From Actinomyces sp. oral taxon 171 str. F0337 (GTDB taxonomy: Bacteria > Actinomycetota > Actinomycetes > Actinomycetales > Actinomycetaceae): a stretch of DNA of 64,000 nt. Position numbers and translations under genes: made by a program. The stretch spans positions 2,232,001 to 2,296,000 of the forward strand of contig NZ_CP040005.1 in assembly GCF_005696555.1 (NCBI RefSeq), in the 5' to 3' direction. The notes beneath the pieces are model-generated. The model was not told the origin of the DNA and searched no databases. It was given only the letters and a program-made list of their open reading frames with translations. Below are positions 5,124 to 63,780 of the stretch, one piece after another. Position 1 is the first letter of the stretch; each line of letters begins with the position of its first letter.

Positions 5124-5295
5124 CACTGCCTCCTCGTGTCTTGACTCGCCCCACGAGGGGGCACGGAACGCCGCCAATTCTCGCACACGGCAACGCGCCC
5201 CGGCCAGTCTCGCACCGCCGACCAGCCGGTGAAGGAGACCACACGTCACTGCTGGCGACGACGACACGGAGCCGGGATGGCCCGGGGCCGCCCCC

Positions 5296-5739
5296 TCAGT
5301 CGCGCTCGAAGCGGACGGTCCGGGAGGACTCGACCCTGGACTCCACGATGCGCACCACCTGTCCGGAGGCGGAGGCCCGAGTCCGGGTCGTGGTCGACGT
5401 CGTCGTCACGCTCACCGCGGTGGCGCGCAGGGCCGACAGGCGCCCAAGGACCCGGGCGCGCAGCTCGGGAGGGGCCTGCTCGGCGCACCGCGAGCGCAGG
5501 ATCTCACGCAGGTGGGTCTCGGCGTCGGCGATGCGCGAGCAGTGCGAGCAGGTGGCCACGTGCTGGGCGAGGCGCTCGGCGAGGTCGGCGGTGCACTCGC
5601 GGTCGAGGAAGGCCTCCAGGTGGGCGCGGGCCTCGGCGCAGGAGCAGTCCTGGGAGCCGTCCGTAGTCTTAAGGGTCTTGGGGTTCTTGGCGGGCTCAGC
5701 GTTGTCGCTGCTGGTTCCCGGTTTCATGCGGTCTGTCAT
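5296..5739 (-). CDS. rsrA: Zinc-binding mycothiol-system anti-sigma factor RsrA/RshA
   Basis: This 147-residue protein has the ZAS signature of disulfide-stress anti-sigma factors: an N-terminal Cys in [10 protein letters not shown], then HVATCSHC, giving the HxxxCxxC zinc and redox-switch cluster. RsrA-family proteins bind SigR/SigH in the reduced state and release it when the thiols oxidise. The C-terminal third (Thr/Arg/Ser-rich) is less conserved. The start ATG at 5739 overlaps the sigH stop codon in an ATGA arrangement, implying translational coupling and near-equimolar production of sigma and anti-sigma. Confidence 0.92.
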
Positions 5740-6404
5740 TTCTCCTCCTCCCCGTACCCGTACTCGCGGGCGTAGTCGGCCAGCAGCTCGCGCAGCTGGC
5801 GGCGCCCTCGGTGCAGCCGGGACATGACGGTCCCGATGGGCGTGTCCATGATCTCGGCGATCTCCTTGTAGGAGAAGCCCTCCACGTCCGCCAGGTAGAC
5901 GGCCAGGCGACGGTCCTCGGTGAGCTGACCCAGGGCGTCCTTGATGTCGGAGTCCGGCAGGGCGTCCAGGGCGAGGTTCTCCGCGCTGGGCAGCCCCACC
6001 GAGTCGTGGGAGGCGGCCCGGTGCAGCTGCCAGTCCTCGACCGTCTCCGCGTCGGACTGGAGCGGCTCGCGCTGCTTCTTGCGGTAGGAGTTGATGAAGG
6101 TGTTGGTCAGGATCCGGTAGAGCCAGGCCTTGAGGTTGGTGCCGGGCCGGTACTGGTGGAAGGAGCCGAAGGCCTTGGCGTAGGCATCCTGCACGAGGTC
6201 CTCGGCATCGGCTCGGTTGCGGGTCATGCGTAGGGCGGCGCCGTAGAGCTGGTCCAGGTAGGGCAGGGCCTCGGCCTCGAAGCGGGCGGCGCGGGCGGCC
6301 TCGTCCTCACCTGCCGGCGCCCGGTCCAGACCGTGCGCAGCATCGCCCGGATCGATCACCTCGTCCAGGGCGATCTCATCTGTGTGGTCGTCGATGTCCG
6401 TCAT
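5736..6404 (-). CDS. sigH: ECF RNA polymerase sigma factor SigH/SigR
   Basis: This is a group-12-type ECF sigma factor for thiol-oxidative stress. Region 2 is visible in [19 protein letters not shown] and [20 protein letters not shown], and region 4 in [14 protein letters not shown] followed by [14 protein letters not shown]. From ATG 6404 ([10 protein letters not shown]) the protein is 222 residues, close to family length. The frame stays open upstream, with in-frame starts at 6467, 6489 and 6617, so a longer isoform is possible (see the promoter at 6627-6653). A -10-like TAGGCT (6413-6418) lies just upstream of ATG 6404. The gene overlaps rsrA by four bases and is probably autoregulated. 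Confidence 0.9.
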
Positions 6405-20371: not shown

Positions 20372-20480
20372 TCCACGCCCCGTCGCAGCCGGTTGGCGGG
20401 AGGCATCCGCGGGTCTGAGCCCTCGGCCATGAGCTCAGGGCCTCATTGGCTCTCACTGCATGCCACCGGCGCGCTCCCGA

Positions 20481-20486
20481 TATGCT
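20481..20486 (+). promoter_or_regulatory. Candidate -10 for leaderless moaA
   Basis: TATGCT is followed by exactly six bases and ATG 20493, with no Shine-Dalgarno. This decides the start in favour of 20493 over 20460. Confidence 0.55.
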
Positions 20487-20492
20487 CAACGC

Positions 20493-21722
20493 ATGACACC
20501 AGCACCGCTCGATGCCGAGGTCGTCGGCCGGAGCAGGATCCGTGGGACCTCCGCGGACCTGCCCGTGCCGGCGACCCGGTCGGTGCTACCCGAGTTATCT
20601 GGACGTCCGGGCCCGTCGGGGCCGGTCCTCTCTGCGGAGACGGCCCCGGAGCCGCCGGCCCTGGCTGACGACGACGTCCCCCAGCAGCTGGTCGACCGCT
20701 ACGGACGCACCGTGCGCGACCTGCGCCTGTCCATCACCGACCGCTGCAACCTGCGCTGCACCTACTGCATGCCCGCGCAGGGGCTCCAGTGGTTGCCCAC
20801 CCCGGATCTGCTGACCACCGCCGAGCTCGCCCGTCTGGGGCGCATCGCCGTCGAGCGCCTGGGAGTGGAGCGCATCAGGCTGACCGGCGGTGAGCCGCTG
20901 CTGCGACGCGACCTGGAGGAGATCATCGGCTCACTGTCCGCGCTGCGGACGTCGACAGGTGTCAAGCCGGACATCGCCCTGACCACGAACGGTCTGGGGC
21001 TGGAGAAACGGGCCACTGGGCTGCGTGCGGCGGGCCTGGACCGCGTCAACATCTCCATCGACTCCCTGGACCCGCAGGACTACGCCGCCATCACTCGCCG
21101 AGACCGGCTCGCCGACGTCCTGACGGGGATCGCCGGCGCCCAGGAGGCCGGCCTGGACCCCATCAAGGTCAATGCCGTGGCCGTGCCCACCACCGTGGAG
21201 GAGCGGGCTCCGCGGCTCCTGGCCGAGTGCCTGCGCCGTGGCTGGCAGCTGCGGTTCATCGAGCACATGCCACTGGGACCGCGCGAGACCTGGAGCAGCC
21301 AGGACGTCGTCGGCGTCGATCAGATCCTGGGGGTGCTGCGGGAGGCCGGCTTCAGCCTCACCGAGGTGGGCCGCCCGGACCGTCGTCCTGCGGCACTGTG
21401 GCGCGTTGCCGCTGGGAGCGCGTCGGGCCAGGACCATCCGGCTGGGACGGTGGGCGTCATCGCCTCGGTCACCGCCCCCTTCTGCTCGGACTGCGACCGC
21501 ACCCGTGTCACGGCCGACGGGCGCCTCATGACCTGCCTTTTCTCCAGTACCGAGACCGACCTGCGCGGCCCCATGCGCGCAGGGGCCGACGACGACGAGC
21601 TCATCCGCATCTGGTCCAGGGCCACCTGGGGCAAGCCTCGCGCACACGGCTCGGACAGTCCCCAGACCGAGGGCGACGGCTTCGCCCGCCCGCAGCGCAC
21701 CATGTCGGCCATCGGTGGCTGA
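20493..21722 (+). CDS. moaA: GTP 3',8-cyclase MoaA
   Basis: This 409-residue radical-SAM enzyme performs the first step of molybdenum cofactor synthesis, GTP to 3',8-cyclo-GTP. The N-terminal SAM-cluster motif CNLRCTYC, the GGEPLL motif, the C-terminal [4Fe-4S] Cys set (FCSDCDRTR and MTCLF) and the terminal Gly-Gly are all visible. The first ~70 residues are a non-conserved Pro/Ala-rich extension, longer than usual. Start 20493 is chosen from the leaderless -10 spacing. It is followed 24 bases later by moaD, forming a small operon. Confidence 0.93.
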   Translation: MTPAPLDAEVVGRSRIRGTSADLPVPATRSVLPELSGRPGPSGPVLSAETAPEPPALADDDVPQQLVDRYGRTVRDLRLSITDRCNLRCTYCMPAQGLQWLPTPDLLTTAELARLGRIAVERLGVERIRLTGGEPLLRRDLEEIIGSLSALRTSTGVKPDIALTTNGLGLEKRATGLRAAGLDRVNISIDSLDPQDYAAITRRDRLADVLTGIAGAQEAGLDPIKVNAVAVPTTVEERAPRLLAECLRRGWQLRFIEHMPLGPRETWSSQDVVGVDQILGVLREAGFSLTEVGRPDRRPAALWRVAAGSASGQDHPAGTVGVIASVTAPFCSDCDRTRVTADGRLMTCLFSSTETDLRGPMRAGADDDELIRIWSRATWGKPRAHGSDSPQTEGDGFARPQRTMSAIGG

Positions 21723-51915: not shown

Positions 51916-53028
51916 ATGGCCAACCCCTTCAAACCGACAGCGGGCGCGACGCCTCCGTTGCTTGTTGGCCGCAACCGCGTCATTGAGGAGTTTCTGGAAA
52001 GCCTCGACGACGGCCCCGGAGCGCCTGGGCTCTTGGAACTCATCACTGGCGCCAGGGGCGTCGGGAAGACCGTCATGCTCACCGCTCTGGGAGACTCGGC
52101 ACGAGAGCGCGGCTGGGTGGTCATTGATGAGACCGCACGAGAGGGGCTCATGGACCGACTCGCCGCCGAGTTCACTCGCCAGCTGTCGCAGCTCGCCGGC
52201 AAGGAGCGCTCACGGTTGACCTCCTTGAGCCTGAGCACACCGCTTGGTGGCGGTAGCGCAACACTCGAGCACGCACCCACTCCTGAGCCCTCCTGGCGGC
52301 AGAAGGCGCGAGCACTGACCCAGTGGCTCGCGGAACACGGCACCGGTCTGCTGCTCACGATCGACGAAGTGCATGCCATTCCGCGCGAGGAGCTGCGAGC
52401 CCTGTCCGCAGAGGTGCAGCACCTCATTCGCGAGGGGGCTCCCATCGGCCTTCTCATGGCGGGCCTCCCCAAGGCCGTTGAGGAGCTCCTCAATGACGAC
52501 ATCACCACCTTCCTGCGCCGGGCCGAGCGGATCGAGCTCGGCGAGGTGGCCATCGACGACGTCTGTGACGCCTTGAAGTCGACCTTCGACGCGGGCGAGA
52601 AGGCGCTGAGCAACGACCTGGCTCAGGAGTGCGCGAACGCGACCGGCGGCTACCCATTCATGATCCAGCTCGTGGGGTATCAGGTGTGGAAACACAGTGG
52701 TGACGGCACGGTGACCCAGCCAGCAGTCGCCGCAGGAACAACCGCCGCCCGACTGCGCCTCGGCAACCTGGTGCACGCTCCGGCGCTGCGCGACCTGTCC
52801 GACGTCGACCGCACGATGCTCGTGTGCATGGCCAAGGACGACGGTCCGTCACAGATCGCCGACATCGCCGAACGCATGGACCGCCCCGTCAACTACGTGT
52901 CGGTCTACCGCAACCGGCTGCTCGCCGCCGGAATCATCAAGACCGCCGGATACGGCAAGATCGACTTCGCCGCCCCCTATCTGCGCGAGTACCTGCGCGA
53001 GCACGCAGCACACCTCGTCATGGAGTGA
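51916..53028 (+). CDS. Stand-alone P-loop ATPase with C-terminal winged helix (archaeal-ATPase/STAND-like)
   Basis: This 370-residue protein has Walker A ITGARGVGKTVML (~residue 45), Walker B LLLTIDEVHAI (~150) and a sensor-like GLLMAGLPKAV. A C-terminal winged-helix region (IADIAERMDRPVNYVSVYRN, then GIIKTAGYGKIDFAAPYLRE) resembles archaeal-ATPase/ORC-Cdc6-like regulators. Function is unknown; such proteins can be DNA-binding switches or defence components. ATG 51916 has tggaga upstream. It is flanked by 10-bp direct repeats and is unlinked to its neighbours, suggesting an inserted single-gene module. Confidence 0.75.
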   Translation: MANPFKPTAGATPPLLVGRNRVIEEFLESLDDGPGAPGLLELITGARGVGKTVMLTALGDSARERGWVVIDETAREGLMDRLAAEFTRQLSQLAGKERSRLTSLSLSTPLGGGSATLEHAPTPEPSWRQKARALTQWLAEHGTGLLLTIDEVHAIPREELRALSAEVQHLIREGAPIGLLMAGLPKAVEELLNDDITTFLRRAERIELGEVAIDDVCDALKSTFDAGEKALSNDLAQECANATGGYPFMIQLVGYQVWKHSGDGTVTQPAVAAGTTAARLRLGNLVHAPALRDLSDVDRTMLVCMAKDDGPSQIADIAERMDRPVNYVSVYRNRLLAAGIIKTAGYGKIDFAAPYLREYLREHAAHLVME

Positions 53029-53275: not shown

Positions 53276-54112
53276 TTGAACTGGCTGCACGCCGTCCTCC
53301 TCGGCATCGTCGAGGGCATCACCGAGTTCCTCCCGGTGTCCTCCACCGGGCACCTCAACATTGTCGAGAAGCTGCTCGGCTACGAGATCAACTCCGCGGG
53401 CACGACCGCATTCACCGCCGTCATCCAGGTGGGTGCGATCCTCGCGGCCATCATCTACTTCTGGGCCGACATCGTCCGCATCGTCAGCGCCTGGTTCAGG
53501 GGCCTGAGCAACCCGCGGGCCCGCCAGGACCCCGACTACACGCTCGGTTGGGGCATCATCCTGGGCTCGATCCCGGTGGCCGTCGTCGGGCTGCTGTTCA
53601 AGGACTTCATCGAGGGGCCGGTCCGCTCCCTGTGGGTGATCGCCGGAGCCCTCATCATCTGGTCGGGGGCCATGTGGCTAGCTGACCGCCAGCAGAACCT
53701 CACCAAGGGCATGAAGGACGTGACCGTCAAGGACGCCCTCATCATCGGTGCGTTCCAGGCCCTGGCCCCGGTGTTCCCCGGCATCTCCCGTTCCGGGGCG
53801 ACGATCTCCGCCGGCCTGTTCCTCAAGTTCGACCGGGTGACGGCCACGCGCCTGTCCTTCTACATGGGTATCCCATCCCTGGTCGCGGCCGGACTGCTGG
53901 AGGCCGCAACGGAGGCCAGCACCATCAGCAACACCGTGGGCTGGACGCCCACCATTGTCGCGACCGTCGTCTCCGGCATCGTCGCCTACGCGACCATCGC
54001 CTGGCTGCTGCGCTTCGTGTCCTCCAACAAGTTCACGTCCTTCCTCGTCTACCGCGTGCTGCTGGGCCTGATCATCATCGCCTTGGTAGCCGCTGGCACC
54101 ATCGCCGCCTGA
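53276..54112 (+). CDS. uppP: Undecaprenyl-diphosphatase UppP (BacA)
   Basis: This 278-residue membrane phosphatase recycles the lipid carrier for cell-wall synthesis. The two active-site motifs are visible: GIVEGITEFLPVSSTGHL at the N-terminus and FQALAPVFPGISRSGATI near residue 160. About eight hydrophobic segments are present. The start is TTG 53276, with ccaggag six bases upstream. Full length. It ends before a strong intrinsic terminator. Confidence 0.95.
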   Translation: MNWLHAVLLGIVEGITEFLPVSSTGHLNIVEKLLGYEINSAGTTAFTAVIQVGAILAAIIYFWADIVRIVSAWFRGLSNPRARQDPDYTLGWGIILGSIPVAVVGLLFKDFIEGPVRSLWVIAGALIIWSGAMWLADRQQNLTKGMKDVTVKDALIIGAFQALAPVFPGISRSGATISAGLFLKFDRVTATRLSFYMGIPSLVAAGLLEAATEASTISNTVGWTPTIVATVVSGIVAYATIAWLLRFVSSNKFTSFLVYRVLLGLIIIALVAAGTIAA

Positions 54113-54199: not shown

Positions 54200-54225
54200 G
54201 TGGTCCTCAGCGTCGGGCTCCGACG

Positions 54226-54269
54226 CCGTACGAATCCTGTTCCGGCATCGTCGTCCGCTTGTACGATAG
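54226..54269 (+). promoter_or_regulatory. STAND-array promoter, copy 1 (diverged)
   Basis: The block from GCCGTACGAATCCTGTTCC to CGCTTGTACGATAG (54256-54269) matches the promoters of copies 2 and 3. Here TACGAT (54262-54267) is followed by an ACG triplet (54275) where the other copies have ATG. The leftmost part resembles the 3' end of a STAND gene. Confidence 0.6.
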
Positions 54270-54351
54270 GCGGCACGACCACCCCCTGGGGTAACCGCAG
54301 ACTCACGAGCCGCTGAGGACGTCGGCTAAAGACGTCGGGGAGATTCGTAGC

Positions 54352-56778
54352 ATGACCACACGCCACCCATCCATTTCTCCCACGCGTATTCGCTTCGGAA
54401 GTCGTCCCGCAATCGCCGCAGGTTTCGTCAAGCGGCAAGGGCAGGATGAGCTCTTCGAGGCCGTCTTCGCTCGCTCCCAGCCTCATACAGTTCTGACGGG
54501 GATGCGAGGAAGCGGCAAGACTCAGTTGGCCGCTGCGGTTGCGGCCAGGTGCGAGGAGAGGGGCTGGCCCCTGGTTGCGTGGATTCATGCAGCCTCACGC
54601 AAGGAGCTCCTTGCCGGTCTCTACGAGCTCGCACTGCGGATCGGTATCGATGCGCCGAAGAACATCCCTCTGGAGGTCATTGTTCAGCGCCTCCTGGATC
54701 AGATGCGCTCAGCAGAGGCAGCGGACCGTCTCTTCGTCTTCGACAACGTGGAGAACCCCGACGACCTGCGAGACCTCATCCCCGAGGGCACTGGAGTCCG
54801 GGCCCTCATCACCACCACGCACCACCTTGACTGGGACGGCCCGGGGTGGCTGCGGTTGACGGTTGGCGCCTTCGAACGGGAGCAGTCGATCACCCTCCTG
54901 TGCGAGCACACCGGTGACACTCACCGCGAAGCAGCTGACCGGATCGCGGAGGTGCTCGGCGACGTGCCCCTCGCCATCACCCAAGCCGCAGCGACAGCAC
55001 AACAGGGTGGATACGCCTCATCCGGCTACCTTGACAGACTGAGTCGTCACCCGCTCGAGTCACGCATCAGTCGCCTCGAGGGCGACGACTACCCGGACGC
55101 CGTCGGCATCGCACTGCTCATGGCCTATGAACAGGCCCTGGAGCAGCTCAGAACCACGCACCCTCAGCAGGAGAGGATCGCCGTATCGCTCCTCGGCGCG
55201 CTGTCCCTCCTGGCTGCTTCCGGAGTGCCGACTCACTGGCTCTTGGCGCTCGACGGCGACTCCGATACAGTACGCGACACTCTGTCTGTTCTGAATAGTG
55301 CTTCCGTCATCCAAGAATCCAGCAACGGCGACAAGACCTTCATTCACTGGCTCCAGGGACACGCGTACCGGGAAACCTACCTGAATGACCAGAAGAAGCT
55401 CGGTGAGGCGCGTACGTGCGCCGCATCAGTTCTCAGCGGGATTGACGTAGACCGCCTAGAGGATGGTGAACAGCGGCGAGACGAGACCCACCATCTCATC
55501 GAGCAGTTTCTCTCAGTCACATCACAGGAATACTCTCATTCACTGTTTTCTGAGCCACAGGTGTCTTCAAAGCTCGCCGAGACACTGCACTACGCGACCA
55601 GCCTTGGGATGTCGCAGCTGGCCCTTGGCCTCACTGACTCCGTGACCCGGGCCTGCGACGTCTTGGGCCCCCACCACCCCGACACCCTCACCTCACGCAA
55701 CAGTCTCGCCGGCTCCTACCGGGATGCGGGCAGGCTCGACAAAGCCATCGCCCTGTACGAGCAGATCCTCGAGGACTCCATCCGCGTCCTGGGTCTCGAC
55801 CATCCCCGCACCCTGACCTCACGTTTCGACCTCGCCGGCGCCTACAGAGCGAGCGGCAGGCTCGAGGAGGCCATCGCCCTGTACGAGCAGGTTTTCAGCG
55901 GCCGCAGCCGCGTCCTGGTCCCCGATGACCGCAGCACCCTCACCGCGCGTGACCATCTCGCCGACACCTACTGGGAAGCGGGCAGACTCGACGAGGCCAT
56001 CACCCTGAAAAAGCAGATCCTCGCAGACGCCATGCGCATCATGGGTGCCGACAGCCCCGGCGCTTCGGCCGCACGTAGTAACCTCGCCGCTACCTACCGG
56101 GATGCGGGCAGGCTCGACGAGGCCATCCCCCTGTACAAGGAGAACCTCGAGGAATTCACCCGGCTCGCGGGCCCCCATCACCCTGAAACTTTGGTCTCAC
56201 GCCACCGCCTCGCTGGCGCCTACCGGGACGCGGGCAGACTTGACGAGGCCATCGCCCTGTATCAGCAGAACCTCACCGACTTCACCCGCCTTGTGGGTCC
56301 CGACCACCCTGAAACCTTGGCCTCGCGCGGCACGCTCGCCGGCGCCTACCGGGATGCGGACAGGCTCGACGAAGCCATCCCCCTGTTCGAGCAGAACCTC
56401 GACGACGTCGCCCGCACGCTGGGCCTCGACCATCCTGAAACCTTGGCCTCACGCCACAGCCTCGCCGGCGCCTACCGGGAAGCGGGCAGGCTCGACGAGG
56501 CCATCCCCCTGTTCGAGCAGAACCTCACCGACTTCATCCGCATCCTGGGTCCCGACCGCCCCGACACCTTCACCTCACGTAGCACGCTCGCCGGCGCCTA
56601 CCAGGCAGCCGGCAGGCTCGACGACGCCATCCCCCTCTTCGAGCAGAACCTCGAGGACCGCACCCGCACCCTGGGACCCGCTCACCCTGTCACTCTCACC
56701 TCGCGCGGCAACCTCGCCGGCGCCTATCGCGCCGCGGGAAGATTTGAGGATGCGGAGAAGCTCTTCGGGACGCCGTGA
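54352..56778 (+). CDS. NB-ARC/STAND NTPase with TPR array, copy 1, lacking the N-terminal domain
   Basis: This 808-residue protein begins directly at the SPTRIRFGSRP segment preceding the NTPase. Walker A is GMRGSGKTQLAAA (~residue 45), Walker B RLFVFDNVENPDDL, sensor ALITTTHHLDW and the NB-ARC GLPL-like GDVPLAITQAAA. A helical middle region follows, then nine 42-residue TPR units of the kinesin-light-chain/TPR_12 type from base 55663. ATG 54352 has gggag upstream. The ~57 bases before it still read in frame like the end of the N-terminal domain of copies 2 and 3, so that domain was lost by deletion. Possible decoy, regulator or remnant. Confidence 0.85.
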   Translation: MTTRHPSISPTRIRFGSRPAIAAGFVKRQGQDELFEAVFARSQPHTVLTGMRGSGKTQLAAAVAARCEERGWPLVAWIHAASRKELLAGLYELALRIGIDAPKNIPLEVIVQRLLDQMRSAEAADRLFVFDNVENPDDLRDLIPEGTGVRALITTTHHLDWDGPGWLRLTVGAFEREQSITLLCEHTGDTHREAADRIAEVLGDVPLAITQAAATAQQGGYASSGYLDRLSRHPLESRISRLEGDDYPDAVGIALLMAYEQALEQLRTTHPQQERIAVSLLGALSLLAASGVPTHWLLALDGDSDTVRDTLSVLNSASVIQESSNGDKTFIHWLQGHAYRETYLNDQKKLGEARTCAASVLSGIDVDRLEDGEQRRDETHHLIEQFLSVTSQEYSHSLFSEPQVSSKLAETLHYATSLGMSQLALGLTDSVTRACDVLGPHHPDTLTSRNSLAGSYRDAGRLDKAIALYEQILEDSIRVLGLDHPRTLTSRFDLAGAYRASGRLEEAIALYEQVFSGRSRVLVPDDRSTLTARDHLADTYWEAGRLDEAITLKKQILADAMRIMGADSPGASAARSNLAATYRDAGRLDEAIPLYKENLEEFTRLAGPHHPETLVSRHRLAGAYRDAGRLDEAIALYQQNLTDFTRLVGPDHPETLASRGTLAGAYRDADRLDEAIPLFEQNLDDVARTLGLDHPETLASRHSLAGAYREAGRLDEAIPLFEQNLTDFIRILGPDRPDTFTSRSTLAGAYQAAGRLDDAIPLFEQNLEDRTRTLGPAHPVTLTSRGNLAGAYRAAGRFEDAEKLFGTP
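55663..56775 (+). repeat. TPR-coding 126-bp repeats, 9 units
   Basis: Units begin at the codon for Leu of LGPxHP every 126 bases (55663 to the last at 56671). Sequence identity between units is moderate, so this array looks older than those in copies 2 and 3. Confidence 0.85.
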
Positions 56779-56821
56779 GAATTCTGTTTCGTCACCGCTG
56801 ACCGCTTGTACGATAGCGGCA
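56773..56821 (+). promoter_or_regulatory. STAND-array promoter, copy 2 (leaderless)
   Basis: Directly after the copy 1 stop, GAATTCTGTTTCG leads to CGCTTGTACGATAG. TACGAT (56809-56814) is followed by six bases and ATG 56821. TGTTTC may be the -35. Confidence 0.6.
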
Positions 56822-59800
56822 TGGCCGATCCCCTCTCCCTCGCTGTCCTGTCTGCCAGCATCACCGGGCTGCTCATGCGCGGAGCCGCTGTGGCCGTTGA
56901 TCCTTCGTGGAGCAGCGCGGCGTCACTGCCAGGCGAGGCCCTCAACGCATGGCGCAGCCTGAGACGTCTGCAACAGGGGCGAGGTGGACAGGAGAATCCA
57001 CTGGAGGCCTCCATCAAGGCCCGACTTCAGAAGCAGGTGGATGACGCCAGCGAACGGTACGAGCGGACCAGCGTCACTCAATCCGCCCTGGCTGGAGCCG
57101 TCACCGAGATGGAGGTGGCACTCACGGAGCTCAGCGGTGACGACGCCGCAGTCATTGAGGCGGTGCGGTTCCCGGACAACTTCGAGACCTACCTCCGACG
57201 GCAAACGGTCGGCCGCCGCCAGAACGTCGAGGCGGCAGCCGAACCCTTCTTCGATGACCTGACCCGCATCGTCGCCGAAGAGTTCATCCGTCTCACGCCG
57301 GGCTCGCGGGCGTTCGACATCGCCGCGCTCAAGCAGCTGCTCGCAGGCCAGGAACAGCTGCTTGCCGGGCAGGAGCAACTGCTGGAGGGGCAGGCAGAGA
57401 CTCACGGACTGCTGGGGGCTATGGCGACGGATATCAAGGAGATCCATGGCGCAATCCCGCGCGGACAATCCGCCTCACCCACGCGGATTCGCTTCGGCAG
57501 CCGCCCCAAGGTCACTACAGGCTTCGTCAAGCGAGAAGGGCAGGACGAGCTGTTCGATGCCGTTCTTACCCGCGCCGAGCCTCGTACGGTACTGACCGGG
57601 ATGCGAGGAAGCGGCAAGACTCAGCTGGCAGCCGCGGTTGCCGCCAAGTGTGAAGAGGGGGGCTGGCCCCTGGTCGCATGGATCAATGCAGCCTCCCGCA
57701 AGGAGCTTGTCGCCGATCTCTACGAACTCGCACTGCGCATCGGTATCAATGCGCCGAAGGATGTCCCTCCGGAGACTATTATTCGGCGCTTCCTGGATCA
57801 GCTACGCTCAGCAGATGCGGCGGACCGTCTCTTCGTCTTCGACAACGTGGAGAATCTCGACGACCTGAGAGACCTTACCCCAAAGGGCGACGGAGTTCGA
57901 GCCCTCATCACCACGACGCGCCACCTTGACTGGAACAGTTTGGGGTGGTCACCAATGGTAGTCGGCGTCTTTGAACGGGAGCAGTCGATCGCTCTTCTCT
58001 GCCAACGCACCGGTGACGCTCACCGAGATGCGGCTGACCAGATCGCAGAGGTGCTTGGCGATCTTCCTGTCGCCGTGACCCAAGTGGCTGCGACAGCAAG
58101 ATGGGGTGAATACACCTTATCCGGCTACCTTGACAGGCTGAGCAATCACCCGCTCGAGTCAAGTATCAGCCGCCTCGAGGGAGATGACTACCCGGACGCC
58201 GTCGGGGGCGCACTGTTCATGGCGTACGAACAGGCCTTGGAACAACTCAGAACCAAGCACCCTCAGCAGGAGAGCGTCGCCACCTCACTCCTTGATATTC
58301 TATCCCTTCTGGCCGCTTCCGGAGTACCGACTCACTGGCTTCTGGCGCTCGACGATGACTCCGACGCAGTCCGAGACACCCTGTCATTCCTGAAGAGAGC
58401 ATCAATTCTCCAAGAATCCATCGACAGCAACAAGACCATCATTCACCGCCTCCAGGGGAAAGTTTACCGCGAAACCTACCTGAGCAATCCAGAGAAGCTC
58501 AACGAGGCACGTGCGCACGCAACATCTCTTCTCAACGAAATCGACGTGGACCAGCTAGAAAATTTTGAACAGCAGCGACAGGAAACACGCAATCTCGTCG
58601 AACAAGTAAGTGCTGTCACACCTCAACACCACTCTCACCCATTATTCTCCGATCCGGATTTTGCTGCACTACTTGCAACGACTCTGCGGAATGCGACCGA
58701 CCTTGGGATGCCACATCTGGCACTTGCCCTTACTGATTCTGTTACGCGGGCGGGCGACACCCTGGGCTCCGATCACCCCAGTACCCTGACCGCACGCCTC
58801 AGCCTCGCCGGCGCCTACCGGGAAGCGGGCCGGCTCCACGAGGCCATCGAACTGTTCGAGCAGAACCTCGACGACCGCACCCGCATCCTGGGCCCCCACC
58901 ACCCCGACACCCTCACCTCACGCGACAACCTCGCCGACGCCTACCGGGAAGCGGGCCGGCTCCACGAGGCCATCGAACTGTTCGAGCAGAACCTCGACGA
59001 CCGCACCCGCATCCTGGGCCCCCACCACCCCGACACCCTCACCTCACGCGACAACCTCGCCTACGCCTACCGGGAAGCGGGCCGGCTCCACGAGGCCATC
59101 GAACTGTTCGAGCAGAACCTCGACGACCGCACCCGCATCCTGGGCCCCCACCACCCCGACACCCTCACCTCACGCAATAACCTCGCCGGCGCCTACCGGG
59201 AAGCGGGCCGGCTCCACGAGGCCATCCCCCTGTACGAGCAGAACCTCGACGACCGCACCCGCATCCTGGGCCCCCACCACCCCGACACCCTCATCTCACG
59301 CGACAACCTCGCCTTCGCCTACCAGACAGCGGGCAGGCTCCACGAGGCCATCCCCCTGTACGAGCAAACCCTCACCGACTCCATCCGCATCCTGGGCCCC
59401 CACCACCCCGACACCCTCATCTCACGCAACAACCTCGCCTTCGCCTACCAGACAGCGGGCAGGCTCCACGAGGCCATCAAACTGTTCGAGCAGAACCTCG
59501 AAGACAGCACCCGCATCCTGGACCCCCACCACCCCAACACCCTGCTCTCACGCGACAACCTCGCCTTCGCCTACCAGACAGCGGGCAGGCTCCACGAGGC
59601 CATCAAACTGTTCGAGCAGAACCTCGAAGACAGCACCCGCATCCTGGACCCCCACCACCCCAGCACCCTCACCGCACGCCACAACCTCGCCAACGCCTAC
59701 AAGACAGCGGGCAGGCTCGAGGAGGCCATCGCCCTGTTCGAGCAGAACCTCGAGGACCACACCCACATTCTGGGACCTGCCCACCCAGGCACCCTCACCG

Positions 59801-60255
59801 CACGCAACAACCTCGCCAGCGCCTACCACGACGCAGGCAGGCTCGATGAGGCCATCCCATTGTTCGATCAGACCCTCGAGGACCGCACCCGCATCCTGGG
59901 CCCCCGCCACCCCAACACCCTGACCTCACGCAACAACCTCGCCATCGCCTACCACAACGCAGGCAGACTCGACGAAGCCATCCCCCTGCTCGAGCAGACC
60001 CTCGAGGACAGCACCCGCATCCTGGGACCCCACCACCCCGACACCCTGACCTCACGCAACAACCTCGCCATCGCCTACCAGGCAACCGGCAGGCTCGAGG
60101 AGGCCATCGCCCTGTTCGAGCAGAACCTCGAGGACCGCACCCGCACCCTGGGACCTGCCCACCCAGTCACCCTCACCGCACGCAACAACCTCGCCGGCGC
60201 CTATCGCGCCGCAGGCAGGATTGAGGATGCGGAGAAGCTCTTCAGGACGCCGTGA
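56821..60255 (+). CDS. NB-ARC/STAND NTPase with N-terminal helical domain and TPR array, copy 2
   Basis: This 1144-residue protein has four parts. Residues ~1-215 form a helical domain with a hydrophobic start (SLAVLSASITGLLMRGAAVA) and a heptad LLAGQEQ repeated three times near 180-200. The NTPase follows (~220-560; GMRGSGKTQLAAA, LFVFDNVENLDDL, ALITTTRHLDW, GDLPVAVTQVAA). After a linker come twelve 42-residue TPRs from base 58762. In this class the TPRs sense a ligand, the NTPase oligomerises and the N-terminus signals; phage defence is inferred, not shown. ATG 56821 is leaderless after TACGAT; the TTG 56806 start is less likely. Confidence 0.87.
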   Translation: MADPLSLAVLSASITGLLMRGAAVAVDPSWSSAASLPGEALNAWRSLRRLQQGRGGQENPLEASIKARLQKQVDDASERYERTSVTQSALAGAVTEMEVALTELSGDDAAVIEAVRFPDNFETYLRRQTVGRRQNVEAAAEPFFDDLTRIVAEEFIRLTPGSRAFDIAALKQLLAGQEQLLAGQEQLLEGQAETHGLLGAMATDIKEIHGAIPRGQSASPTRIRFGSRPKVTTGFVKREGQDELFDAVLTRAEPRTVLTGMRGSGKTQLAAAVAAKCEEGGWPLVAWINAASRKELVADLYELALRIGINAPKDVPPETIIRRFLDQLRSADAADRLFVFDNVENLDDLRDLTPKGDGVRALITTTRHLDWNSLGWSPMVVGVFEREQSIALLCQRTGDAHRDAADQIAEVLGDLPVAVTQVAATARWGEYTLSGYLDRLSNHPLESSISRLEGDDYPDAVGGALFMAYEQALEQLRTKHPQQESVATSLLDILSLLAASGVPTHWLLALDDDSDAVRDTLSFLKRASILQESIDSNKTIIHRLQGKVYRETYLSNPEKLNEARAHATSLLNEIDVDQLENFEQQRQETRNLVEQVSAVTPQHHSHPLFSDPDFAALLATTLRNATDLGMPHLALALTDSVTRAGDTLGSDHPSTLTARLSLAGAYREAGRLHEAIELFEQNLDDRTRILGPHHPDTLTSRDNLADAYREAGRLHEAIELFEQNLDDRTRILGPHHPDTLTSRDNLAYAYREAGRLHEAIELFEQNLDDRTRILGPHHPDTLTSRNNLAGAYREAGRLHEAIPLYEQNLDDRTRILGPHHPDTLISRDNLAFAYQTAGRLHEAIPLYEQTLTDSIRILGPHHPDTLISRNNLAFAYQTAGRLHEAIKLFEQNLEDSTRILDPHHPNTLLSRDNLAFAYQTAGRLHEAIKLFEQNLEDSTRILDPHHPSTLTARHNLANAYKTAGRLEEAIALFEQNLEDHTHILGPAHPGTLTARNNLASAYHDAGRLDEAIPLFDQTLEDRTRILGPRHPNTLTSRNNLAIAYHNAGRLDEAIPLLEQTLEDSTRILGPHHPDTLTSRNNLAIAYQATGRLEEAIALFEQNLEDRTRTLGPAHPVTLTARNNLAGAYRAAGRIEDAEKLFRTP
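58762..60252 (+). repeat. TPR-coding 126-bp repeats, 12 units, several nearly identical
   Basis: Units start every 126 bases from 58762 to 60148. The second to fourth units (about 58888-59265) are almost identical in DNA, including GCGGGCCGGCTCCACGAGGC. This shows recent expansion or gene conversion. Confidence 0.9.
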
Positions 60256-60298
60256 GAATTCTGTTTCGGGGACGCTGACCGCTTGTACGATAGCGGCA
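60250..60298 (+). promoter_or_regulatory. STAND-array promoter, copy 3 (leaderless)
   Basis: Directly after the copy 2 stop, GAATTCTGTTTCGGG leads to CGCTTGTACGATAG. TACGAT (60286-60291) is followed by six bases and ATG 60298. It is nearly identical to the copy 2 promoter. Confidence 0.6.
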
Positions 60299-63200
60299 TG
60301 GCCGATCCCCTCTCCCTCGCTGTCCTGTCTGCCAGCATCACCGGGCTGCTCATGCGTGGAGCCGCTGTGGCTGTTGATCCTTCGTGGGGCAGCGCGGCGT
60401 CACTGCCAAGCGATGCCCTTAACGCGTGGCGCAGCCTGAGACGTCTGCAACGGGGGCGAGGTGGACAGGAGAATCCGCTGGAGGCCTCCATCAAGAGCCG
60501 TCTTCAGAAGCAGGTGGATGACGCCAGCGAAAGGTATGAACTGGCCGGAATCAGTCGATCCATCCTGGCTGGAGCCGTCACCGAGATGGAGGTGGCGCTC
60601 AAGGAGCTCAGCGGTGACGACGCCGCAGTCATTGAGGCGGTGCGGTTCCCGGACAACTTCGAGACCTACCTCCGACGGCGGACGGCCAGCCGCCGCCAAA
60701 ACGTCGAGGCAGCAGCTGAGTCCTTCTTCGACGACCTGACCCGCATCGTCGCCGACGAGTTCATCTACCGCGCTCCAGGCTCGCGGGCTTTCGACATCGC
60801 TGCACTCAAGCAGCTGCTCGCAGGCCAGGAACAGCTACTTGCCGGGCAGGAACGACTACTAGATCAGTACACGAAAACTTACGAGCGCTTGGACAGGATT
60901 ATCGACAACATCCAAAACACACGCGCTCAACTACACGCCACCCCCACACAGATTCGGTTCGGCAGCCGCCCTATGGTTACCACCAACTTCGTTCCACGAA
61001 CAGCGCAGAATCAACTCGTCGACGCCATCTTCTCCCACAACGAGCCTCGTACAGTATTGACGGGGATGCGAGGAAGTGGCAAGACTCAGCTAGCCGCTTC
61101 GATTGCATCCAAGTGCGAAGACGAGAGATGGCCCATCGTCGCATGGATCCACGCGGCCTCACGCAAGGATATTATTGGCGATCTCTACGAGTTCGCGCTG
61201 CGGAGCGGCGTCAACGCAACGAAGGACACCCCTCCAGAGATCATCGTTCGGCGTATTCTAGATCAGCTACGCTCAGCAGATGCGGCAGACAACCTCTTCG
61301 TCTTCGACAACGTAGAAAACCTTGACGACCTGAAACACCTCATCCCTGAAGGTAAAGGAGTCCGGGTCATCATCACCACCACACGTCACCTTGACTGGGA
61401 CAGTCTCGGATGGCACCCAATCACAGTCGGCGTCTTTGAAAGAGATGAGTCGATCACTCTCCTCTGCGAACGCACTGGCGACACTCACCGCGATGCGGCG
61501 GACCAGATCGCAGAGGCTCTTGGCGACCTCCCCGTCGCCATAACACAAGCCGCCACGACAGCCCACAATGAGAGATACACCCTCACTGAATACCTCAGCA
61601 GACTGAACAACTTTCCACTAGCAGCCACTATCGATAAACAAGAAGGTGAACATTACCCACAAGCAATCAGCACAGCCTTATGGCTTGCATGCAAAGCGAC
61701 AATAGGCAGCATCAAGAAGAAGAACTCCACGCAGGGGAAATTATCACTCCATCAGATGAACACGCTATCCCTACTCGCCTCACCGGGAGTACCCATCACC
61801 TGGCTGGAAGATTATAACGACACAGAGAACGCCAAGAAGTCTCTCAGTGCACTATTGAACTCCTCGGTGTGCCAAATCTCAGCAGACGGCAAGAAGGTTC
61901 TAATCCATCAACTTCAAGGACGAGTTTTTAGAGAGAACCATCTCAGCACGAAAACAGAGCTGAACACTGCTGTTTCCACGGCAATTCATGTGCTGGAGAG
62001 CATTAGCACACACACTGAAGACATTCTAGACAGAGAACGACAAGAGACGCAGAACCTCATCGAACAGCTAAGCATCATCGCCTCCCAAGAATACTCACTT
62101 CCTTTATTTGCTGACCCCACCATCGCCACAATACTCGCGAGAACCCTTCAAAATGCCTGGCGACTCGGCATGCATCAGATTACACTCACCCTCATTAATC
62201 CACTCACTAAAGCTAGCGACATTTTAGGGGTAGATCACCCTGACATCCTCGCATCACGTAACAGCCTCGCTGATGCCTACCTACTAGAAGGGCATATAGA
62301 AAAGGCTGTCAAGTTAGTTCAGCAGAATCTCAAGTACTCCAGAAAACTACTTGGAGACACACATCCAGCCACCCTGGCCTCACTCAACACCCTCGCTAAT
62401 GCCAGCCGAGACAGCGGCAATATCGAAGATGCCGCCTCCCTGTTCGAGAAAATCCTCGCTGATCGCATCCGCATTCTGGGCCCCGATCACCCCGACATCC
62501 TGACCTCACGCAATAATCTCGCTGGCACTCTCCAAGAGGTAGGCAAGCTCGAGGAGGCAATCATTCTGTATAAGCAGAACCTAGAGGATTCTAAACGCAT
62601 TCTCGGGCCCAGCCACCCCGGAACTCTCACCTTCCGCAATAATCTCGCTGGCGCTTACCAAGAGGTGGGCAGGTTCGAGGAGGCAATCATCCTACTCGAG
62701 CAGAATCTCAAAGACCGCACTCGCATCCTGGGCCCCGACCACCCCGATACCCTGGCCTCACGCAACAACCTCGCCAACGCCTACCAGGCTGCCGGCAGAC
62801 TCAACGAAGCCATCCACCTGTACGAGCAGAACCTTGAGGACCGCATCCACATCCTGGGCCCCGACCACCCCGATACCCTGGCCTCACGTCACAACCTCGC
62901 CGATGCCTATCGGGACATGGGCAGGCTCGATGAAACCATCCACCTGTACGAGCAGAACCTTGAGGACCGCATCCACATCCTGGGCCCCGACCACCCCGAT
63001 ACCCTGGCCTCACGCAACAACCTCGCCAACGCCTACCAGGATGCAGGCAGACTCAACGAAGCCATCACCCTGCACCAACAGAACCTTGAGGACCGCATCC
63101 ACATCCTGGGACCCCACCACCCCGATACCCTGGCCTCACGCAACAACCTCGCAGTCGCCTACCAGGATGCAGGAAGAATTGACGAAGCCATCACCCTGCA

Positions 63201-63780
63201 GGAACAGAACCTTGAGGACAGCATCCACATCCTGGGACCCCACCACCCGCATATCCTCACCGCACGCAACAACCTCGCAGTCACCTACCACGACGCGGGC
63301 AGGCTCGACGAAGCCATCACCCTGTACGAACAGACCCTCACCGACCTCACCCGCATCCTGGGACCCCACCACCCCAGCACCCTGACCTCACGCAACAACC
63401 TTGCAGTCACCTACCTGGACGCCGGCAGGCTCGACGAAGCCATCACCCTGTACGAACAGACCCTCAAAGACTGCACCCGCATCCTGGGCCCCCACCACCC
63501 CGACACCCTCATCTCACGCAACAACCTCGCCAGCGCCTACCAGGACGCCGGCAGGCTCGACGAAGCCATCACCCTGTACGAACAGACCCTCAAAGACTGC
63601 ACCCGCATCCTGGGCCCCCACCACCCCCACACCCTCACCACACGCCACCACCTCGCCGAGGCTTATCGCGCCGCGGGCAGATTCGATGATGCAGACAGCC
63701 TCTTCAAGACGCCGTCGGACTCCGAAGAGGACGAGCAGAAAGACAGCGAGGACAACCCGGACCAGGAGACCGATAGCTGA
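60298..63780 (+). CDS. NB-ARC/STAND NTPase with N-terminal helical domain and TPR array, copy 3
   Basis: This 1160-residue paralogue has a nearly identical N-terminal domain to copy 2 up to ~residue 185, with LLAGQEQ repeats, then diverges (LLDQYTKTYERLDR). NTPase motifs are GMRGSGKTQLAAS, LFVFDNVENLDDL, VIITTTRHLDW and GDLPVAITQAAT. The region ~61600-62450 is AT-richer with different codon use, then GC-rich TPR units resume (twelve from 62224). It ends with an acidic tail (SEEDEQKDSEDNPDQE) missing from the other copies. The mosaic suggests recombination with a diverged homologue. ATG 60298 is leaderless. Role as for copy 2, perhaps with different ligand specificity. Confidence 0.87.
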   Translation: MADPLSLAVLSASITGLLMRGAAVAVDPSWGSAASLPSDALNAWRSLRRLQRGRGGQENPLEASIKSRLQKQVDDASERYELAGISRSILAGAVTEMEVALKELSGDDAAVIEAVRFPDNFETYLRRRTASRRQNVEAAAESFFDDLTRIVADEFIYRAPGSRAFDIAALKQLLAGQEQLLAGQERLLDQYTKTYERLDRIIDNIQNTRAQLHATPTQIRFGSRPMVTTNFVPRTAQNQLVDAIFSHNEPRTVLTGMRGSGKTQLAASIASKCEDERWPIVAWIHAASRKDIIGDLYEFALRSGVNATKDTPPEIIVRRILDQLRSADAADNLFVFDNVENLDDLKHLIPEGKGVRVIITTTRHLDWDSLGWHPITVGVFERDESITLLCERTGDTHRDAADQIAEALGDLPVAITQAATTAHNERYTLTEYLSRLNNFPLAATIDKQEGEHYPQAISTALWLACKATIGSIKKKNSTQGKLSLHQMNTLSLLASPGVPITWLEDYNDTENAKKSLSALLNSSVCQISADGKKVLIHQLQGRVFRENHLSTKTELNTAVSTAIHVLESISTHTEDILDRERQETQNLIEQLSIIASQEYSLPLFADPTIATILARTLQNAWRLGMHQITLTLINPLTKASDILGVDHPDILASRNSLADAYLLEGHIEKAVKLVQQNLKYSRKLLGDTHPATLASLNTLANASRDSGNIEDAASLFEKILADRIRILGPDHPDILTSRNNLAGTLQEVGKLEEAIILYKQNLEDSKRILGPSHPGTLTFRNNLAGAYQEVGRFEEAIILLEQNLKDRTRILGPDHPDTLASRNNLANAYQAAGRLNEAIHLYEQNLEDRIHILGPDHPDTLASRHNLADAYRDMGRLDETIHLYEQNLEDRIHILGPDHPDTLASRNNLANAYQDAGRLNEAITLHQQNLEDRIHILGPHHPDTLASRNNLAVAYQDAGRIDEAITLQEQNLEDSIHILGPHHPHILTARNNLAVTYHDAGRLDEAITLYEQTLTDLTRILGPHHPSTLTSRNNLAVTYLDAGRLDEAITLYEQTLKDCTRILGPHHPDTLISRNNLASAYQDAGRLDEAITLYEQTLKDCTRILGPHHPHTLTTRHHLAEAYRAAGRFDDADSLFKTPSDSEEDEQKDSEDNPDQETDS
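62224..63711 (+). repeat. TPR-coding 126-bp repeats, 12 units
   Basis: Units begin every 126 bases from 62224 to 63610. The first four are diverged and AT-rich. Later ones are GC-rich and near-identical (for example the units at 63484 and 63610), a gradient of homogenisation toward the 3' end. Confidence 0.88.

Follow-up and report, generated by a model that had tools for sequence, protein, structure and literature searches.

Three NB-ARC genes with tandem TPR units

The stretch of DNA studied here (the window, 64,000 nucleotides) comprises positions 2232001-2296000 of the single-contig 3.10 Mb genome of Actinomyces sp. oral taxon 171 str. F0337. Towards its right end three genes on the same strand, which we call c1, c2 and c3, occupy 54352-63780 between uppP and sbcD. 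Each couples an NB-ARC NTPase to an array of tetratricopeptide repeats (TPRs), and c2 and c3 begin with a shared N-terminal domain (NTD) which c1 does not have. In window positions, the parts of the locus are:

53276..54112 (+): uppP (undecaprenyl diphosphatase, BacA family; Pfam BacA 5.8e-84), left border of the slot
54352..56778 (+): c1, 808 aa, NB-ARC and TPR with no NTD
54385..55056 (+): NB-ARC NTPase of c1 (bounds estimated from c2)
55663..56670 (+): c1 TPR array, 8 x 42 aa, whose units mostly keep orthologous positions between species
56821..60255 (+): c2, NNH1-like domain, NB-ARC and TPR, 1144 aa (AlphaFold2 mean pLDDT 83.2)
56821..57384 (+): helical NTD of c2 (residues 1-188), with a hydrophobic helix at 4-26 (Pfam NNH1 26.5 bits; models)
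57484..58155 (+): c2 NB-ARC NTPase (approximate)
58762..60147 (+): c2 TPR array, 11 x 42 aa, repeats homogenised
60298..63780 (+): c3, NNH1-like domain, NB-ARC and TPR, 1160 aa (Pfam NB-ARC 8.3e-10; NNH1 24.4 bits)
62224..63735 (+): c3 TPR array, 12 x 42 aa
63832..64000 (+): start of sbcD, right border of the slot; it runs on beyond the window, with an SbcC-like gene after it

We assign the names sbcD and sbcC tentatively, from the look of the N-terminal sequences.

The motifs GMRGSGKTQ, FVFDNVEN, ITTT and LGD[VL]P (Walker A, Walker B, sensor and GLPL-like) are common to c1, c2 and c3, and the TPR units follow one another at an exact spacing of 42 residues (8 in c1, 11 in c2 and 12 in c3). Tandem Repeats Finder (TRF) gives a matching 126-bp period with scores of 612, 1899 and 1207, respectively. 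Open reading frames (ORFs), motifs, unit spacing and TRF period together bear out the three adjacent NB-ARC and 42-residue TPR genes described in a first-pass annotation of this DNA, as well as the NTD shared by two of the three copies. From N- to C-terminus, c2 and c3 have the order effector, NTPase, repeats. Close homologues are filed under Actinomyces naeslundii, A. oris and A. johnsonii, in keeping with this genus.

The Pfam NB-ARC family exceeds its cut-off in c3, the c1 head lies below it (14.1 vs 23.5), and the family is not among the 25 best whole-protein matches listed for c2; MalT-like TPR profiles match in the same Pfam search of c1-c3. With a profile built on residues 1-480, three PDB matches reached E<=0.01, namely the plant NOD-like receptors (NLRs) ADR2 (E 5.8e-6) and NRC1 (0.0012), and APAF-1 (0.0036). 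The AlphaFold2 model of c2 (29 sequences), whose confidence score (pLDDT, predicted local distance difference test) is low at residues 1-11, 23-62 and 173-220, runs from a helical domain through NB-ARC and a helical connector to a long TPR superhelix. In a Foldseek search with the full-length model, in which the best 50 of 342 matches at E<=0.001 were inspected, the top PDB match was 6mfv, an archaeal protein with signal transduction ATPase with numerous domains (STAND) and TPR parts (E 9.5e-13). APAF-1 ranked 28 and 43, the Podospora anserina structures 4y6w and 4y6c, which show TPR-like repeats that are almost identical to one another, ranked 29 and 31 at 37-38% identity, and kinesin light chain (KLC) TPRs were also among these 50. 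Profile and structure searches therefore agree on NB-ARC, TPR and a helical N-terminal domain, as had been read from the letters.

The first-pass annotation did not recognise the NTD, which a profile search finds to be known to the databases. Pfam NNH1 (PF22733, NACHT N-terminal Helical domain 1) aligns with residues 47-189, scoring 26.5 bits in c2 and 24.4 bits in c3, against a gathering cut-off of 27 bits. Two of the seven NTDs scanned exceed this cut-off (L047, 39.7 bits; L043, 33.4 bits), and L075 (25.7), L039 (21.0) and L051 (19.8) fall below it along with c2 and c3. Judged by this profile, the NTD of c2 and c3 is a divergent NNH1. Residues 4-26 form a predicted hydrophobic helix; in 10 genes its best 19 residues have a mean Kyte-Doolittle value of 1.4-2.2. 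The start MADPLSLA is reminiscent of fungal and plant NLR N-termini, a likeness that no profile or fold supports. No HeLo, Bell or 4-helix membrane-killing domain was matched by Pfam in residues 1-66 of 10 NTDs, nor in the PDB by profile or fold, with a model that is weak at residues 1-57; a HeLo, Bell or plant coiled-coil (CC) origin of the NTD was set aside. The NTD is carried by 7 of 396 genomes sampled across the order, all of one family, and within the genus by 22 of 49 genomes at E<=0.001, including G011 (a remnant only) and G430 (marginal); surveyed genomes are given as G numbers, the present one being G000. In a pattern scan of GTDB contigs, L075 and L080 (titled Xylanimonas and Sanguibacter, names unconfirmed) matched through the NTD at 38-39%.

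A promoter core, CCGCTTGTACGATAG, occurs in three perfect copies in the 64 kb (at 54255, 56802 and 60279; 0.04 expected), with no further copy in the window at up to 2 mismatches:

54255..54269 (+): promoter core before c1, perfect copy, 83-97 nt ahead of the c1 ATG
56802..56816 (+): promoter core before c2, TACGAT ending 6 nt ahead of the ATG
60279..60293 (+): promoter core before c3, TACGAT ending 6 nt ahead of the ATG

The near-identical promoter proposed for each gene thus holds for the core and not for its position in c1, where it lies upstream rather than at the start. The core upstream of c1 is also present in G007, G011 and, with one change, G006, and is absent in G003 and G010. The ORF list starts c2 and c3 at TTG (56806 and 60283); this codon lies partly within the promoter motif, which makes the ATG found 15 nt further on (56821 and 60298) the better start. 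All 28 rows of NTD-bearing genes with an assignable start have a -10-like TANNNT hexamer ending 6-7 nt ahead of the start codon. These rows represent 27 distinct genes (one contig appears twice, as G006b and L066), include many close orthologues and take the G004 start at an internal Met by homology; the truncated or broken G034, G020 and G026, and G431, were left out. The same spacing is found at 26 of all 4006 ATG/GTG triplets in the window. This geometry implies predicted leaderless mRNAs for the NTD genes, perhaps with basal expression.

Repeat turnover and change on one TPR face

In a tree of the NB-ARC region (26 rows), the c1 orthologues of six genomes form one clade (100/100), c3 groups with G010b (100/100), and c2 groups with G006b, G007b and G010c at only 82/94. 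By this topology c1, c2 and c3 are old paralogues, and the recent turnover is that of the repeats. The tandem amplification suggested earlier is therefore retained as adjacent paralogy, and not as a recent event, since the copies group with orthologues from other species. At the DNA level c2 and c3 are 83-96% identical over the stretch that starts at the promoter and includes the NTD, 48-68% across the linker, 57-81% in NB-ARC and 36-59% beyond; on these values the putative effector end is kept alike and the putative receptor end diverges.

The repeats of c2 are the most homogeneous, with a mean nucleotide identity of 0.85 (neighbours 0.89, maximum 0.99), compared with means of 0.74 in c1 and 0.69 in c3. 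When c2 was compared with G007b, a c2-type gene of another single-contig genome and the closest relative with a finished sequence, with 11 repeats in each, the best partner was in register for 1 of 11 repeats. For c1, 5-7 of 8 repeats per species pair were in register, with diagonal means of 0.84-0.88 and off-diagonal means of 0.72-0.73, and all 14 repeats of G015b and G022a were in register. A 647-aa head is identical in 14 of the 120 homologues listed, and these 14 proteins had 14 distinct arrays of 3-6 repeats, a distinctness which is partly by construction as the database was clustered at 90%. Protein P0002 equals c2 over residues 1-480 and differs at 9 positions in 481-647, and its nine repeats are 5-13 residues away from the nearest c2 repeat; it sits on a 6.7-kb contig which may be a chimera, and repeat collapse cannot explain its array.

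Among 411 distinct repeat units, position 17 is the most variable (2.94 bits), lying between a near-invariant LA and AY in helix A, which spans unit positions 6-21 in the c2 model. We take positions 10, 13, 17, 20 and 21 to be the helix-A positions that line the ligand-binding groove of a TPR; entropies of at least 2 bits outside this set occur at positions 4, 7, 30, 32, 37, 39 and 41. The entropy periodicity was reached by 226 of 10000 permutations for helix A and by 6194 for helix B. We compared nonsynonymous with synonymous change (pN/pS) by a counting method. In 90 repeat pairs at least 85% identical, non-independent and drawn from a list of 9 genes including the c1-type G003a, pN/pS was 2.97 at the five face positions vs 0.86 elsewhere, and 3 of 10000 random five-position sets reached the face pN. 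By gene, the face value was 3.73 in c2 and 2.07 in G015x. The orthologous repeats of c1, at 0.52 on the face vs 0.47 elsewhere, appear to be under purifying selection. Permutations reaching the observed pN numbered, per 10000, 7 for c2, 19 for G015x, 271 for G007b, 713 for c1 orthologous repeats and 884 within c1. These results strongly suggest diversifying change on one face of helix A in c2 and in the pooled close repeats. The earlier claim of sensor repeat turnover under ligand pressure consequently fits c2 and some relatives; it does not fit c1, and c3 alone is without a pN/pS excess.

The lost N-terminal domain of c1 and the uppP-sbcD slot

A trace of the NTD lies ahead of c1:

54270..54351 (+): c1 leader; orthologue leaders encode a decayed NTD tail with stops, and a GGGGAG Shine-Dalgarno-like motif precedes the ATG (by eye)

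With the c2 NTD as a tblastn query against six c1 leaders, G003a matched at E 7e-6 and G010a at 0.007, matches were weak in G006a (0.19), G011a (0.39) and the window copy (0.89), and G007a gave none; every match contains a stop. The decayed NTD end in the leader therefore indicates that c1 has lost its effector domain. Its repeat number is 8 in 6 of 8 genomes, with 13 in G003 and 16 in G428, both of which are fragmented assemblies. Degenerate 5' stubs of sbcD are found within the slot, once in G003, twice in G010, and in G026 and G005 (the G005 slot is without an NLR):

L038:9727-9864, L039:8208-8346 and 2456-2671, L152:2909-3100, L170:11994-12092: degenerate sbcD 5' stubs

In G003 and G010 a stub is joined to the tail of the lost NTD ahead of c1. 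This suggests growth of the array through recombination events that added units next to sbcD, one of which may have taken away the effector domain of c1. A c1-type gene in G011 (L041:6856-9216, +) combines a c1 head with an acidic C-terminal tail of the c2/c3 type, and its last repeat is nearest to G007b repeat 11 (0.89); it is possibly a product of recombination between tandem copies.

The gene uppP was found in 49 of 49 Actinomyces genomes. At the junction between it and sbcD, 15 genomes carry receptor genes (G000, G003, G006, G007, G010, G011, G013, G015, G020, G022, G023, G026, G338, G428 and G436), among which the contig or examined stretch stops before an intact sbcD in G006, G010, G026, G338 and G428. 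The junction is near-empty in 17 genomes (58-186 bp), holds other cargo in 11 (757-13012 bp) and is undecidable in 6, owing to a contig end or to sbcD not being nearby. Because of this census, genes of the c1-c3 type are accessory rather than the uniform single-copy housekeeping genes that the first-pass annotation had set as the opposite case. Copies outside the slot are G015x, G022x, G031, G004, G032 and G034. A homologue search returned 2035 proteins at E<=0.001, and the best 120 all cover 99-100% of the head. Among plasmid records 42 match, all at less than 60% identity and none at more than 80% query coverage; the 20 listed begin at residue 209 or later and so are without the NTD. Mobile spread was rejected on these partial matches together with the phage-record result given below.

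Several further observations concern the slot and similar genes. The slot gene of G020 (L053:3472-7234, -) is in pieces around an unrelated ORF on the opposite strand (5275-6087). In G029 (L047:9394-11201, +), a HEC-01A/HEC-01B candidate defence pair lies between the NLR gene and sbcD. The G016 slot (L177:12065-14703, -) has an ATPase (AAA_16, below cut-off) and then a TPR protein with the same 42-residue unit, a pair that resembles a split receptor and has no PADLOC match. A second switch-like gene of the present genome (G000:C1:733688-737047; L187:4689-8048, -) has many near-identical TPRs, an N-terminal membrane helix (by eye), a P-loop and a weak ATPase_2 match (18.0 bits vs a cut-off of 33.2); it adjoins a TPR-only gene and has no PADLOC match. 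On the 5' side of uppP, window positions 51916-53028 (+) encode an AAA_16 ATPase with weak winged-helix matches, which is 97-99% identical in the c1-bearing G003, G006, G007, G010 and G011 and missing at that place in G023.

A candidate array of intracellular non-self receptors

We read the locus as a small array of intracellular, NLR-type (STAND) receptors of non-self, with a probability of about 0.58. PMC7159879 describes STAND proteins as receiving a signal at the C-terminal repeats, which sets off an assembly that depends on NTP. On that ground the expected ligand of c2 and c3 is a protein bound in the TPR groove, and their output would come from NTDs brought together. At rest, NB-ARC would be kept ADP-bound by the TPR superhelix. 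Binding of a foreign protein to the inside surface of that superhelix would free NB-ARC for nucleotide exchange and oligomerisation, whereupon the clustered NNH1-like domains would kill the cell or halt its growth. Such an outcome is the most likely one for c2 and c3, and an attack on the membrane, perhaps through insertion of the hydrophobic first helix, is plausible with no fold to support it. Near-identical 126-bp repeats that are shuffled, gained, lost and homogenised would keep the sensing face new, together with selection on the helix A face, so that the array appears to be diversifying. The more fixed sensor of c1, with its effector lost, would make it probably a regulator, decoy or scaffold rather than a killer. 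An immune role for c1-c3 is likely from the comparison with other systems; phage may be the trigger, as may a toxin or another form of non-self.

A number of results weigh against this reading. The selection signal is a suggestion and not proof, because the repeat pairs are non-independent and the five face positions were chosen with the entropy table already in view, hence not blind. Face pN/pS is not above 1 in G007b (0.83), in c3 repeats 5-11 (0.94) or within c1 (1.09). A separate model of the NTD had no fold match and lies below pLDDT 50 at residues 1-57, because of which membrane action is a guess. According to PMC12222747, short-read and metagenome assemblies can collapse or miscount 126-bp repeats, and repeat counts from metagenome contigs were not taken as proof. 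In G011, c1 is found without an NTD-bearing partner, and NTD copies are found without c1 in G023 and G436; c1 as an obligate helper was rejected on this separation. PADLOC 2023, a library that may omit NB-ARC-type systems, gave no Avs-type match for c1-c3, with only mad8, TPR and PDC-M71B at E 0.006 to 2e-9. The head had 0 matches in 50,697 phage records, a set without IMG/VR contigs.

The survey of homologues' neighbours that had been proposed points the same way. It covered 117 ORFs from 33 homologue loci (120 were selected and three long ones omitted), 7 of which match TPR families, so that pieces of the genes themselves or paralogues are included. At 1e-15, PADLOC gave 25 family rows of one ORF each, among them IetA, AbiEi, AbiEii, DrmD, PDC-M60C, SspA, DndA, a PN-superfamily 'Effector', TRIP13 and mad2. 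The 31 window ORFs that served as a small control gave mad3 (2), E1-E2 and pVip, and against this control there was no enrichment of defence islands.

This missing phage-defence context, in the neighbours as in the phage records, is compatible with a narrower form of the same explanation, in which the receptors serve kin or inter-bacterial recognition and respond to neighbours' toxins or proteins in the biofilm, or to parasites of the cell, with phage not the main trigger. In their type of repeat and in the selection on one face the genes resemble fungal NB-ARC/TPR NLRs of high internal conservation (PMC4986451), and the large set of homologues with full-length heads fits as well. We consider it unlikely nonetheless, as the characterised bacterial STAND systems act on phage (PMC10907252 and PMC12931631). 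A signalling switch with no role in non-self recognition, for instance a regulator like MalT or, next to uppP, a sensor of envelope stress, appears improbable. Bacterial STANDs have been studied mainly as transcription regulators (PMC7159879), and both the MalT-like TPR matches and the preferred site next to uppP would suit it. However, no DNA-binding family is among the best 25 whole-protein Pfam matches listed for c1-c3, uppP still lies next to sbcD in the 17 of 49 genomes without the insert, some copies lie elsewhere, and amino acid change in close repeats is focused on one TPR face.

That focus also speaks against neutral slippage, by which the repeats would vary merely through instability of the 126-bp tandem DNA. 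The exact period and near-identical units do favour slippage and unequal exchange, and G007b and c3 are without a pN/pS excess. Yet the pooled close pairs change nonsynonymously about threefold over synonymously at the five face positions and not elsewhere, and the adjacent c1, with the same period, retains mostly orthologous repeats, which leaves slippage alone quite improbable. The remaining alternative, a component of an FxSxx-COOH or VMAP-type peptide-processing conflict system, would be most surprising. It is suggested by NCBIfam NF040586 (FxSxx-COOH system TPR protein; cut-off 300), which c1, c2 and c3 match at 420, 547 and 633 bits; related proteins carry the FxSxx-COOH name, and the 117 neighbour ORFs of distant homologues include 4 Radical_SAM and 2 Trypco2 matches, which would fit such systems in those relatives. 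In all three proteins, however, the best-scoring stretch of that match lies within the TPRs, and the FxSxx-type AP-ATPase described in PMC7159879 bears TIR and not NNH1. The best match to the FxsB radical-SAM/SPASM maturase in the present genome reaches 32.6 bits vs a cut-off of 370, and none of the 14 control genomes exceeded it; within Actinomyces the FxsB search covered the present genome. The FxSxx-COOH precursor peptide had no match here, but neither had any control genome, so that this search speaks neither way. Because FxsB is missing from the genome, the FxSxx-COOH name does not describe the locus, and the label was set aside. The sole, weak FxsB (radical SAM) match lies in an ORF at window positions 20460-21722 (+).

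Among known systems, the array of non-self receptors that we propose is closest to the fungal NLRs, namely the Podospora NB-ARC/TPR protein Pa_2_10340 and the HNWD proteins, which share with it an NB-ARC or NACHT switch and high identity between repeats. Pa_2_10340 has KLC-like TPRs (modelled on KLC2) with selection on their concave side, HNWD has 42-residue WD repeats, and repeat numbers change, as PMC4986451 and PMC12222747 describe. Unlike these, the locus is bacterial, has an NNH1-like rather than a sesB-like or HET N-terminal domain, includes an adjoining paralogue (c1) with mostly fixed repeats and no effector, and sits as an array in one chromosomal slot. The tripartite plan of effector, STAND and repeat sensor is common to the bacterial antiviral STAND, bNACHT and Avs systems (PMC12931631 and PMC10907252); unlike Avs and bNACHT, the locus has no PADLOC Avs match, belongs to the NB-ARC clade and appears to change its sensor by repeat turnover. 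The actinobacterial AP-ATPase-TPR proteins of FxSxx-COOH systems (NF040586) have the same NB-ARC-TPR core, but here the genome is without the FxsB maturase and an NNH1-like domain stands in place of TIR (PMC7159879). Bacterial STANDs with a diversified sensor are likewise found in multicellular bacteria, where NACHT/STAND proteins are varied by diversity-generating retroelements (DGRs) through reverse transcriptase acting on a C-type lectin (PMC10907252); the present locus would vary by tandem-repeat recombination and selection.

NB-ARC, 42-residue TPRs and NNH1 are thus already known kinds of domain, and what is new is the homogenised, out-of-register state of the c2 repeats together with change focused on one face. 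In searches of one open-access library we found no report of repeat-turnover NLRs in bacteria. It is a tentative possibility that Actinomyces holds a bacterial counterpart of the fungal allorecognition NLRs, with leaderless, probably always-on receptors whose TPR sensors are reshuffled between strains, through recombination among near-identical repeats, under diversifying selection, an effector-less regulator with a fixed sensor, and a slot that swaps its cargo. If true, this would be a route to an individually variable repertoire of intracellular sensors in bacteria that is free of reverse transcriptase, and the fungal rule for telling self from non-self, concerted repeat turnover with selection on a TPR face, would hold in bacteria too. 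Since a constant head is joined to a variable sensor, natural alleles could be used to map ligand and specificity in a culturable bacterium, and what bacterial NB-ARC-TPR proteins sense would become directly testable.

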